A stretch of DNA of 64,000 bases from Octadecabacter sp. B2R22. GTDB lineage: Bacteria > Pseudomonadota > Alphaproteobacteria > Rhodobacterales > Rhodobacteraceae. This document shows positions 40,906 to 43,977 of this stretch, in pieces. Where the stretch lies: contig NZ_JAHKQJ010000002.1 in the NCBI RefSeq assembly GCF_018861045.1, positions 310,001 through 374,000 of the forward strand. Direction: 5' to 3'. Under the pieces are notes generated by a model. That model was not told the DNA's origin. It did no database searches and worked only from the letters and a program-made list of their open reading frames with translations. A program made the position numbers and the translations under genes. How positions within the stretch are numbered: the stretch's first letter is position 1; every line of letters begins with the position of its first letter.

Positions 40906-40938
40906 AAAAAGGCGCAAGCTTGATGCTCACGCCTTTTT
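40906..40938 (-). terminator. Terminator of the sulfurylase/kinase gene
   Basis: AAAAAGGCG and CGCCTTTTT pair over 9 bp around an inner AGC-GCT helix. On the minus strand it is followed by more T residues, 41 nt past the stop codon. It can also work on the plus strand. Confidence 0.8.
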
Positions 40939-40978: not shown

Positions 40979-43057
40979 TTACTCAGCGGCAATCAGACCC
41001 ATGCTTTCGAGCTTCAGGATCACCTGATGCGCACAGTTGTCTACGTCGACATTTTCAGTCTCCACGGACAGCTCAGGGTTAACCGGAACGTCATAAGGGT
41101 CAGAGATCCCTGTGAATTCCTTGATCTTTCCTTCGCGGGCCAGCTTGTAGAGACCCTTACGGTCGCGCTTTTCACACTCTTCAATGGATGTTGCGACATG
41201 AACTTCGATGAATGCACCGAAAGATTCAATGTCTTCACGAACGGCGCGGCGTGTGGTTGCGTATGGCGCGATTGGCGCACAGATCGCGATACCACCGTTC
41301 TTGGTGATCTCGGATGCAACGTAACCGATGCGGCGGATGTTCAGGTCGCGGTGCTCTTTGGAAAAGCCCAGTTCGGAGGACAGGTTCTTGCGAACGATGT
41401 CACCATCCAGAAGCGTCACAGGGCGGCCGCCCATTTCCATCAGTTTCACCATCAAAGCGTTGGCGATTGTGGATTTTCCTGAACCGGAGAATCCAGTGAA
41501 GAACACTGTGAAACCCTGCTTGGAACGTGGCGGCTTTGTGCGGCGCAATTCTTTGACAACTTCAGGGAAGGAGAACCACTCAGGGATTTCCAGACCTTCA
41601 GCCAAACGGCGGCGCAATTCTGTGCCAGAGATGTTGAGGATCGTGACTTTGTCTTTGTCTTCGATCTCGTCGATCGCTTCGTATTGCGCACGTTCGTCAA
41701 CCCAAACCATGTGTTTGAAATCGACCATTTCGATGCCCATTTCTTCTTGGTGGGCGCGGAACAAGTCTTGTGCGTCGTAAGCACCGTAGAAATCTTCACC
41801 AGCGGAGTTGGAACCTGGGCCCGCGTGGTCACGGCCAACGATGAAGTGTGTACAGCCGTGGTTCTTACGGATCAGGCCATGCCAAACTGCTTCGCGTGGG
41901 CCTGCCATACGCATGGCAAGGTTCAGCAAGGACATCGCAGTTGTGGACTGTGGGTACTTGTCCAGCACTGCTTCGTAGCAACGAACGCGTGTGAAGTGGT
42001 CAACGTCGCCCGGCTTTGTAAGGCCCACAACAGGGTGGATCAACAGGTTAGCCTGTGCTTCGCGTGCTGCGCGGAATGTCAGTTCTTGGTGCGCACGGTG
42101 CAGCGGGTTACGTGTTTGGAACGCAACCACTTTGCGCCAGCCCATTTTGCGGAAGTAAGCGCGCAATTCGTTTGGCGTGTCGCGACGGGCGCGGAAATCG
42201 TAGTGCACTGGCTGTTGGATGCCGGTGACTGGACCACCAAGGTACACCTTGCCAGCTTGGTTGTGCAGGTAGTTGACGGCTGGGTGCGCATCATCATCAG
42301 CGCCGAAGACTTTTTCAGCTTCTTTGGCTTTGTTTGGCACCCAGTTGTCGGTGACAGTCATGGTCGCCAGAATAACGCCTTCTTGGTCGCGCAGGGCGAT
42401 GTCTTGACCAGCTTCAAGAGAGGCTGCGAAGTCCTCAGAGACGTCCAAAGTGATCGGCATTGGCCAAAGTTCGCCTGTTGTCAGGCGCATATTGTCGACG
42501 ACGCCGTCGTAGTCGGCTTCGGTCAGGAACCCTTTGAGTGGGTTGAAGCCGCCGTTCATCAGCAATTCAAGGTCGCAGATCTGACGCGGTGTCAGGTCGT
42601 GGCTGACGAGTTCGCCAGCTTCAACTTTCAGCTTCTGTGCTGAATCGTAGGAGACATACAGCTCTGGGATCGGAGAAAGGTTGTGTTCCATAAGTTTGGT
42701 CCTGTTACTAAGAGACGTGAGGCCGGATGCGCTGCCCGTAAGTTCGGCATGTAGCGCGTCGTATTCGGCAAGTTTTCGAGTTAGAAATTGAGTTGTAAGG
42801 CGGTTCTTCTCGCCCGCGCCACGTGCCGTGATGGCATAGGTATGGCGCGCGCGTTTGTCTGGGCCGTTGCGGTCTTCGACGTTTACAAGGCCCGCTTCGG
42901 TGGCTTGTTTCAACAGTGCGTTAAGTCGACCCAAAGAGACGCCGATCGCCTCTGCGGTCACCCGCTGGGACGCGTCAGGCGCGAGGTCCAACTGCCGTAA
43001 CAATCGGAACATTTGGTCCTCTTGCTCGGTTGTGATTTTGGCGGGCGACATGGCCAT
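40979..43057 (-). CDS. MarR/EPS-type regulator domain fused to ATP sulfurylase / APS kinase
   Basis: An uninterrupted 692-codon frame. Residues 1-110 match the small 'EPS-associated MarR' regulators (TIGR04176-like): a winged helix with LLRQLDLAPDASQRVTAEAI, then the helix TTQFLTRKLAEYDALHAEL. Residues 123-510 are ATP sulfurylase (QTRNPLHRAHQE, GRDHAGPG); residues 515-692 are APS kinase (GFSGSGKSTIANAL, DGDIVRKNL). The enzyme half makes PAPS from sulfate and ATP. A second start at 42691 (MEHNLSPIPEL, residue 123) has AGGA eight bases upstream and yields 570 residues, the normal length of the bifunctional enzyme in this family. So either a true fusion or two proteins from one frame are made. 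Two palindromes lie just upstream. Confidence 0.85.
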   Translation of the reverse strand: MAMSPAKITTEQEDQMFRLLRQLDLAPDASQRVTAEAIGVSLGRLNALLKQATEAGLVNVEDRNGPDKRARHTYAITARGAGEKNRLTTQFLTRKLAEYDALHAELTGSASGLTSLSNRTKLMEHNLSPIPELYVSYDSAQKLKVEAGELVSHDLTPRQICDLELLMNGGFNPLKGFLTEADYDGVVDNMRLTTGELWPMPITLDVSEDFAASLEAGQDIALRDQEGVILATMTVTDNWVPNKAKEAEKVFGADDDAHPAVNYLHNQAGKVYLGGPVTGIQQPVHYDFRARRDTPNELRAYFRKMGWRKVVAFQTRNPLHRAHQELTFRAAREAQANLLIHPVVGLTKPGDVDHFTRVRCYEAVLDKYPQSTTAMSLLNLAMRMAGPREAVWHGLIRKNHGCTHFIVGRDHAGPGSNSAGEDFYGAYDAQDLFRAHQEEMGIEMVDFKHMVWVDERAQYEAIDEIEDKDKVTILNISGTELRRRLAEGLEIPEWFSFPEVVKELRRTKPPRSKQGFTVFFTGFSGSGKSTIANALMVKLMEMGGRPVTLLDGDIVRKNLSSELGFSKEHRDLNIRRIGYVASEITKNGGIAICAPIAPYATTRRAVREDIESFGAFIEVHVATSIEECEKRDRKGLYKLAREGKIKEFTGISDPYDVPVNPELSVETENVDVDNCAHQVILKLESMGLIAAE
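42689..42703 (-). promoter_or_regulatory. Internal start with ribosome binding site for the sulfurylase/kinase alone
   Basis: AGGA at 42700-42703 lies eight bases before ATG 42691 on the minus strand. From here the protein has exactly the length and N-terminus of stand-alone bifunctional sulfate adenylyltransferase/APS kinases, so this start may be used in addition to, or instead of, the fused one. Confidence 0.55.
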
Positions 43058-43075
43058 CAGGCGCGACTCACTATT

Positions 43076-43124
43076 TGTTCAAGCGTGAACATAGGACCAA
43101 AGTTTGTTCATGCAAGAACAAACT
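43076..43124 (-). promoter_or_regulatory. Two operator-like palindromes upstream of the MarR fusion
   Basis: Site 1 (43076-43091) is TGTTCA-AGCG-TGAACA, site 2 (43101-43124) is AGTTTGTTC-ATGCAA-GAACAAACT, a perfect 9-bp inverted repeat. Both contain TGTTC - 6 nt - GAACA, and their centres are 29 bp apart. They end 18 nt before the MarR start and would overlap its promoter, as expected for an autoregulatory MarR-type site. Confidence 0.65.
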
Positions 43125-43329
43125 TGCGCCGATGCTGGGTTTTTCCTGAAACTGGGCGGGTGATGGCGGTATTGTTTCGAAAATTCGCCTATTGAGCGGT
43201 CAGCCCCGTCAATGTTTCCACGATTTCCAACTGGGTTTGCGCAGAGTTCGAACGAATTTACAAAAGCATCATTTAATGGTAAATTTTACGGATAAATCGG
43301 ATAAGTTTTTAAAGTTATGGAGAATTACG

Positions 43330-43977
43330 ATGAGATTGATATCTACAGCTGCTGCATTGGTGGCTTTTTCGTCACCAGCGTTTGCTGCAACCCTCGATTT
43401 TACCGGCGACATTTGTACGGGGGGCGGTAGCTGCTCTAATGGCCTGCAGATTGACCAAACTTATGGCGACATTGCTGGTGAGCTGGATGTTGTTTGGGAT
43501 GCTAACACCGCGACCGCTGCCGATGAGAACGTATTTTATTGGGGTGGCAACTATGAGGACCTGGGATCGGTTGCGTACTCGCTCAGTTCTGGGACGGGGA
43601 TGTCGATTACTTTCGCCGCGGCAGCTGGTTTCGATGCCTTGCTCGATGGGTTCAGCATCGCACGATATGCCAACCGAGTGGTGACAACGAGCATTACCGT
43701 CGTCGACCTGGCGGATAGTTCCGTGCTTCTGGATACTGGAAATTTTGAAACAACATATGACGGCAGTCTTGATTACGTTCTCAACGCTCAATCAAGCGCT
43801 GGCTTTGAGATCCTTTTCGGCCCAGATTCTTGGAACGTCGGTATTTCCGACATATCTTATAGTTCACAAGCGACGGCAGTGATCGATCCATCTCCGGTGC
43901 CACTGCCTGCCGCTGGCTGGATGCTTTTGGCAGGTCTTGGCGGAATGGCCGCAGTAGGTCGCCGCAAGAACAGCTAA
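43330..43977 (+). CDS. VPLPA-CTERM sorting domain-containing protein
   Basis: The 215-residue protein has a signal peptide (ending SSPAFA, cut near residue 19), a beta-rich region with two cysteines (CTGGGSCS) and the tripartite C-terminal signal: VPLPA (190-194), the hydrophobic stretch AGWMLLAGLGGMAAVG and the basic end RRKNS. This is the substrate signal of the exosortase D (XrtD) system of Rhodobacteraceae. ATG 43330 follows GGAGAATTACG. It is divergent from the MarR/sulfurylase gene, and exosortase systems go with extracellular polysaccharide. The exosortase itself is not in the window. Confidence 0.9.
   Translation: MRLISTAAALVAFSSPAFAATLDFTGDICTGGGSCSNGLQIDQTYGDIAGELDVVWDANTATAADENVFYWGGNYEDLGSVAYSLSSGTGMSITFAAAAGFDALLDGFSIARYANRVVTTSITVVDLADSSVLLDTGNFETTYDGSLDYVLNAQSSAGFEILFGPDSWNVGISDISYSSQATAVIDPSPVPLPAAGWMLLAGLGGMAAVGRRKNS

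Follow-up and report, generated by a model that had tools for sequence, protein, structure and literature searches.

What does a DNA-binding domain do at the amino terminus of a sulfate-activating enzyme? The question is raised by a gene on the reverse strand of a 64,000-nucleotide stretch of Octadecabacter sp. B2R22 (contig NZ_JAHKQJ010000002.1, positions 310,001 to 374,000; this whole stretch is referred to as the window), in which a winged helix resembling the MarR_EPS regulators runs in frame into a bifunctional synthase of 3′-phosphoadenosine 5′-phosphosulfate (PAPS). Sulfate enters cysteine and sulfated polymers by way of its activation, and roseobacter-type bacteria play an important part in the sulfur cycle of the sea. 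Comparison with related genes makes it likely that a housekeeping sulfate-activation gene has here become a trigger enzyme that regulates itself and yields two products. The housekeeping ATP sulfurylase of roseobacter-type bacteria would thereby gain a directly testable control circuit, and sulfate activation would join the short list of trigger enzymes.

The MarR_EPS-like domain and PAPS synthase in one frame

Translation of the 692-residue open reading frame from its first ATG at 43057 revealed no stop codon between the MarR part and the enzyme. Residues 12-107 match the MarR_EPS model TIGR04176 of NCBIfam (77.1 bits, E 9.1e-22; curated cut-off 88), residues 121-690 match the bifunctional sulfate adenylyltransferase/adenosine 5′-phosphosulfate (APS) kinase model NF004040 (1037 bits; curated cut-off 669), and the Pfam domains HTH_24, PUA_2, ATP-sulfurylase and APS_kinase are in line with both. 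With a score above the cut-off, both catalytic domains and the motifs QTRNPLHRAH, GRDHAGPG and GFSGSGKST, to which we would ascribe catalytic roles, the enzyme part is a member of the PAPS synthases. This bears out the original prediction of a 692-codon frame of MarR_EPS type followed without stop by sulfurylase and kinase, and its internal ATG, preceded by AGGA and leaving 570 residues, is present as described. An AlphaFold2 (AF2) model of residues 1-114 (predicted local distance difference test, pLDDT, 86.9) consists of a winged helix and a 30-residue carboxy-terminal helix, and Foldseek places MarR-family structures first among its matches (E 3e-5 and weaker). Only the MarR part was taken to the fold search because the whole-chain model (mean pLDDT 71) was unsatisfactory for parts of the enzyme; linker residues 117-133 had low model confidence. 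The enzyme part is the same whole 570-residue enzyme as in NF004040 proteins, 2gks and the ATP sulfurylases 1i2d and 1m8p, its best-scoring solved relatives and presumably fungal, and can be aligned to the solved structures, from all of which the fused gene differs by its extra N-terminal DNA-binding domain.

We read 133 distinct fused genes, comprising the window's own, nine from congeners, the 80 best-scoring of 585 loci and 43 from a survey of the family (43 of the 93 fused rows counted there were fetched). Excluded were L001 and L002, both of them the window, then L003, L005, L008 and L013, from the contigs of L025, L026, L027 and L033, and the interrupted or incomplete genes of G014, G008, G010 and G013 (L016 and L018-L024). 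The 80 best-scoring loci are biased toward fused genes and were used for conservation, not for frequency; the nearest named relative among them is O. algicola D2-3 (99%), and the genera represented include Phaeobacter and Shimia. The original prediction had proposed aligning homologues and had reckoned with a separate MarR gene elsewhere and a sequencing error here. In all 133 genes the MarR part precedes the enzyme without a stop, which rules out sequencing error or chance read-through, and a separate MarR gene was found at only one (L125) of 57 unfused genes.

Within the genus a match was found in 19 of 19 genomes, 14 of them with a single complete frame that spans residue 1-5 to 692, one (G005) with the enzyme alone and four with partial or broken genes. 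The family survey gave matches in 380 of 395 genomes (351 genera); among the matches listed (150 rows) 93 were fused and 57 started at residue 81-125, and two fused rows were flagged for a stop (G223 and G282), the frame of G223 reading complete. A second draw of 196 genomes placed the MarR part within a frame of 690-790 codons in 66, with 15 more rows being short stand-alone frames, while frames of fused length occurred in three of 387 genomes drawn from the class, all three from the window's family. Some genomes of the family survey had weak matches only (~1e-35) and 15 of the 395 had none; these may activate sulfate by other enzymes or have lost the capacity.

In a tree with 24 stand-alone MarR_EPS domains, 64 fused MarR domains formed a single clade (Shimodaira-Hasegawa-like approximate likelihood ratio test, SH-aLRT, 100), as expected from one fusion event. 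Fused and plain forms are interspersed in a tree of 125 enzyme parts, which makes several losses of the MarR domain, or replacements of the gene, probable. Within the window's family the fusion is both widespread and ancient.

Palindromes before fused and stand-alone MarR_EPS genes

The palindrome GTTC-N6-GAAC lies upstream of 132 of the 133 fused genes, the sole miss (L086) being on a contig that starts inside the operator, and was found in 5 of 887 coding windows of equal size, in support of the earlier claim that the gene has operators of its own. GTTC and GAAC were imposed by the search pattern; the flanking and inner bases, whose figures are independent of it, are A (98%) and T (100%) as inner neighbours, Y and R as flanks in 132 sites, and T at -3 in 92%. 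From the end of the palindrome to the first start there are 19, 19, 18, 23, 4 and 75 bases in six examples, the last with a doubtful start; the internal start is 384-386 bases away from it in 76 of 132 genes. Two or more sites are present at 36 of the 133 genes, the second 29-34 or 47-49 bases further upstream and at a spacing of 29 or 32 in 26 of these 36.

At 56 of the 57 unfused genes, a set that leaves out row G231 with its short upstream region, neither a MarR match nor the palindrome was found. trxB lies within the ~1.2 kb fetched at 26 of the 57, and many are therefore at the same locus as the fused gene; the 56 include G005 (L017), the unfused gene of the window's genus, which stands behind trxB as in its relatives. 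Six independent pairs can be compared on well-supported branches, and the operator tracks the fusion in all 6 (200 random pairings; median sign-test p 0.031) or, in a few of the pairings, in 5, the remaining pair showing no difference. An operator at the relevant promoter, as in a trigger enzyme, is thus indicated by sequence comparison only. The strict form TGTTC-N6-GAACA occurs at five places in the 3.3-Mb genome of the window, two at this gene and three inside open frames; no other promoter in the whole genome carries it, which speaks against a multi-gene regulon of this pattern. At the cysH locus (L250) a GTTC-N6-GAAC lies ~1.4 kb from the match.

Stand-alone MarR_EPS genes have a similar palindrome. 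Fourteen of the 15 short rows of the second draw form the stand-alone set, the 15th being a gene in L170, and all 15 tested score above the TIGR04176 cut-off. YGYTC-N6-GARCR was found at -104 to -132 before 14 of 14 of these family genes, compared with 0.6% of mononucleotide shuffles, and no PAPS synthase was found in any of the 14 stretches (3.8 kb fetched each). In other families of the class, GYTC-N6/7-GARC was found in the 350 bases before each of nine stand-alone genes, as opposed to 3 of 72 control windows from the same loci. Fused and stand-alone domains share ten invariant residues (R32, S41, G43, Y74, T77, G80, K95, E98, L102 and E105), and the fused domain shows both the residues of the MarR_EPS family and the winged-helix fold. 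MarR_EPS regulators therefore agree with the fused gene in domain extent, invariant residues and operator type, and differ from it in being stand-alone frames of ~105-180 amino acids, whereas the fused domain forms its own clade and its window copy scores under the cut-off. By this agreement the palindrome is probably that of the MarR_EPS family, and the comparison points to YGYTCA-N4-TGARCR as the predicted operator for the whole family, for which a predicted DNA target is now available.

The one exception among the unfused genes is L125 (L170, 9997-12291). It encodes a second PAPS synthase, is part of a polysaccharide cluster and follows, at a distance of ~260 bases, a MarR_EPS gene that is separate from it (154.9 bits, which exceeds the cut-off) and is preceded by CGTTCAACTGTGAACG. 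It is the sole one of the 57 with both MarR and palindrome, and its arrangement is possibly a picture of the state before the fusion. The divergent gene in L170 we take to be NusG-like. A GGTAGC core, mostly within GTGCGGTAGC, stands ahead of 12 of the 14 stand-alone family MarR_EPS genes (L269-L282) and was found by eye ahead of 8 of the 9 class-level ones (L210-L218); it presumably resembles the ops element of RfaH/NusG-like antiterminators.

A probable second start within the linker

The second start is so strict that one arginine codon, the AGG of the linker, is identical in all 133 genes, and the codon nine bases after it is ATG in 128 and GTG in four; in two fused genes AGG and ATG are displaced together by one codon. 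The enzyme parts of these genes contain 5,292 arginine codons, 9 of which are AGG, and the N-terminal parts 1,480, of which 31 are AGG; AGA and CGA are roughly as rare. Among 383 columns in which at least 97% of genes have the same residue, Met and Trp set aside, the linker AGG alone is written with one codon throughout (131 of 131); the next-best column of a six-codon residue has the same codon in 124 of 133, CGC or CGT is the commonest codon in each of the 33 further arginine columns, and at other conserved residues of the MarR part the commonest codon is used in 31-86% of genes. Within residues 109-128 only R119 and M123 are at least 90% conserved (73 sequences). The internal start pairs with the anti-Shine-Dalgarno sequence at a median energy of -4.0, compared with -2.2 for the first start and -2.4 for random positions; in 105 of 133 genes it outpairs the strongest candidate for the first start, with two ties.

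A requirement for arginine does not explain the use of one codon out of six, which is readily attributed to ribosome binding. By the codon evidence the internal ribosome-binding site and start is kept at the nucleotide level, which makes it very probable that the gene produces both a long repressor-enzyme and a short enzyme, and annotation from either start alone probably covers one of the two products. The original prediction had offered a trigger enzyme or a dual product as alternatives; the dual product is supported, and the comparison speaks for the two in combination. Internal in-frame starts giving a shorter isoform are found in bacteria in the CheA short form and the Tn5 transposase inhibitor, where one frame likewise gives two proteins, the shorter without the N-terminal part; the fused gene differs in that the omitted part is a transcription-factor domain that would act on its own gene. 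Our literature search found no proteomics of a strain with the fused gene. The entry gi|115345666 is probably, as we take it, of the plain plasmid-borne PAPS synthase type. In the table cited from Roseobacter litoralis, PAPS synthase is given at 64.39 and assigned to this entry (PMC4103551).

Table 1 Features of the fused gene and its surroundings, in window coordinates
Feature	Position	Strand	Remarks and basis
Long fused frame, 692 aa	40979..43057	-	MarR_EPS-like winged helix and PAPS synthase; ~75 kDa (estimate of the original prediction)
MarR_EPS-like winged helix, residues 12-107	42737..43024	-	long C-terminal helix 78-107; TIGR04176, AF2, Foldseek
Short frame, 570-aa plain PAPS synthase	40979..42691	-	extent as in unfused homologues; ~62 kDa (estimate of the original prediction)
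Internal Shine-Dalgarno AGGA	42700..42703	-	AGG = Arg119 codon, 133/133; next base A, 132/133
Internal start codon ATG (Met123)	42689..42691	-	nine bases past AGG; ATG/GTG in 132/133
Proximal operator (predicted), TGTTC-N6-GAACA	43076..43091	.	18 bases before first ATG; sequence, conservation
Distal operator (predicted)	43105..43120	.	29 bp from proximal; symmetry over 43100-43125; sequence, conservation
Possible promoter, TTGCAT-16-TATGTT	43088..43115	-	overlaps both operators; by eye, missed by consensus scan
PUA_2 domain, N-terminal sulfurylase part	42215..42670	-	Pfam PF14306
ATP sulfurylase catalytic domain	41540..42184	-	Pfam PF01747
APS kinase domain with P-loop GFSGSGKST	41063..41518	-	Pfam PF01583, sequence
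Intrinsic-terminator-like stem and T tail	40906..40938	-	weak: 2 such sites vs 3.5 expected in shuffles
VPLPA-CTERM frame	43192..43977	+	between trxB and fused gene

Proposed autoregulation, its alternatives and the genomic setting

From these features we infer DNA binding, repression, the proportion of the two forms and the signal as follows. In the long product the MarR_EPS-type winged helix would dimerise, bind GTTC-N6-GAAC over its own promoter and repress transcription; the short product, a plain bifunctional PAPS synthase started at the internal AGGA-N8-ATG of the same mRNA, would supply enzyme without adding repressor. The long form holds the whole enzyme and its likely input is therefore the enzyme's own ligand state, such that PAPS (or APS) building up in the sulfurylase/kinase part would shift the protein towards DNA binding and sulfur limitation would release it. 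The P-loop makes both kinase activity and PAPS binding plausible, and in the account cited the C-terminal kinase-like domain of Penicillium ATP sulfurylase confers PAPS-mediated allosteric control (PMC4220642). With this precedent and the P-loop, product-dependent repression is the form of control that we favour by analogy. More tentatively, the isoforms may co-assemble, a translationally fixed long:short ratio setting the amount of repressor per oligomer and the PAPS- or APS-bound state setting operator affinity, in which case a one-gene, one-promoter homeostat would arise with enzyme, sensor and repressor as versions of one polypeptide.

As in the fused gene, the trigger enzymes PutA, BirA and NadR of Escherichia coli unite a metabolic enzyme and a DNA-binding domain in one chain. 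Their control of transcription depends on substrate, which for the fused gene is a proposal, PutA binding only the spacer between putA and putP; they differ in enzyme, pathway and DNA-binding family, and the passages cited mention no second start for a domain-less enzyme (PMC8249747). The loss of the BirA DNA-binding domain in alpha- and betaproteobacteria, as described in the section cited (PMC5343134), parallels the unfused PAPS synthase genes seen here. The partners of ATP sulfurylase named in the cited parts of two papers are APS kinase, pyrophosphatase and APS reductase (PMC4220642, PMC2275785), and the term 'DNA-binding' is in neither text. A literature search of titles and abstract starts, covering the top entries only for some lists, found no MarR_EPS-PAPS synthase fusion and no paper on the MarR_EPS family. 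On the comparative evidence we regard as real a widespread trigger-enzyme architecture with a conserved second start, which that search did not find in print.

Several observations weigh against this interpretation, of which the ligand is the weakest step. The MarR domain of the window stays below the TIGR04176 cut-off in the genome search also (81.2 bits), as do four of five further fused domains scored (77-84), the fifth, L171, lying over it (98.4). The frame is broken over more than one frame in two congeners, G014 and G008 (fragmented assemblies, dropped from the counts), and one of the 133 fused genes (L009) has ATA at the internal start. The best enzyme tree calls for 24 state changes; well-supported branches by themselves demand only a minimum of 6. 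The consensus scan gave no sigma-70 promoter at the operators, and the first start was set by rule and is uncertain in some genes. The looser pattern YGTTC-N6-GAACR occurs at 25 places in the genome, two of them the operators described here; of the 23 others 14 were examined, 13 lying inside open frames and one (L240) being intergenic, before a frame that we take to read like dnaA.

Other readings of the locus can be set against the same evidence. That the MarR domain is an activator, or represses on a signal other than that of the enzyme, for example a thiol or redox signal suggested by the trxB neighbour, seems unlikely: trxB does lie upstream at 78 of 80 loci and MarR proteins presumably sense many ligands, but the proximal operator has a repressor-like position close before the first start (4-75 bases in the six examples) and the residues conserved in the MarR part include no cysteine. 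It is improbable that the gene makes the long autorepressor-enzyme only, with the linker AGG and Met being accidental or acting otherwise. A rare codon between the domains could, we assume, slow translation for folding; such a pause however needs no AGG specifically, AGA and CGA being about as rare, and leaves unexplained the A that follows AGG in 132 of 133 genes and the start codon at exactly nine bases. The joint displacement of AGG and ATG at two loci and the restriction of conservation at 109-128 to R119 and M123 likewise argue for a start.

We think it very improbable that the palindrome is owned by another regulator of sulfur metabolism and that the MarR domain is structural or serves protein contact. 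GTTC/GAAC half-sites occur elsewhere, as presumably in the direct repeat GTTC-N7-GTTC of alphaproteobacterial LexA, but palindrome and MarR domain are jointly present or absent, and the like palindrome stands at 14 stand-alone MarR_EPS genes with no PAPS synthase in 3.8 kb. A regulator of exopolysaccharide that couples PAPS supply to polysaccharide sulfation is hardly credible, despite the MarR_EPS family of the domain, the stand-alone MarR_EPS gene before a second PAPS synthase in the polysaccharide cluster of L125/L170, and two of three roseobacter-type plasmids whose plain PAPS synthases adjoin genes for an exosortase or a sulfotransferase; against it stand the trxB/lrp/purE synteny of the fused gene, its being the only PAPS synthase found in the window genome, and a strict operator at no other promoter.

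The genomic setting is that of a housekeeping gene. At the 80 loci the neighbours are trxB (78) and lrp (68) upstream and purE (51) downstream, some loci ending early, in place of the polysaccharide cluster that the name MarR_EPS would suggest. The fused protein has a single match in the window genome, where one PAPS-reductase match and no CysN over the cut-off were found, which leaves it as the sole sulfate-activating enzyme detected there. Together with the trxB neighbourhood this makes general, housekeeping sulfate assimilation most likely the main role of the gene. The absence of a CysN match over the cut-off and the single ATP sulfurylase agree with the cited description of Rhodobacterales as being without CysN/CysD and having an ATP sulfurylase related to the fungal one (PMC2275785).

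The neighbouring VPLPA-CTERM protein had been thought to strengthen a link with exopolysaccharide. The frame exists, but it was found at 1 of the 80 relatives, the nearest named one (L025), with trxB at 78, and a polysaccharide link by way of this neighbour finds no support. Given the MarR_EPS likeness and the stand-alone MarR_EPS gene before the second PAPS synthase of L125/L170, the link may instead be historical, the fused domain being derived from a polysaccharide locus.

Plain PAPS synthases were also seen on plasmids. That of a Paracoccus saliphilus plasmid had no polysaccharide genes in the stretch viewed. On Roseobacter denitrificans pTB2 (L283) the enzyme lies near XrtD exosortase/VPLPA-CTERM genes, and on Sulfitobacter pontiacus plasmid unnamed3 (L284) near a sulfotransferase gene.

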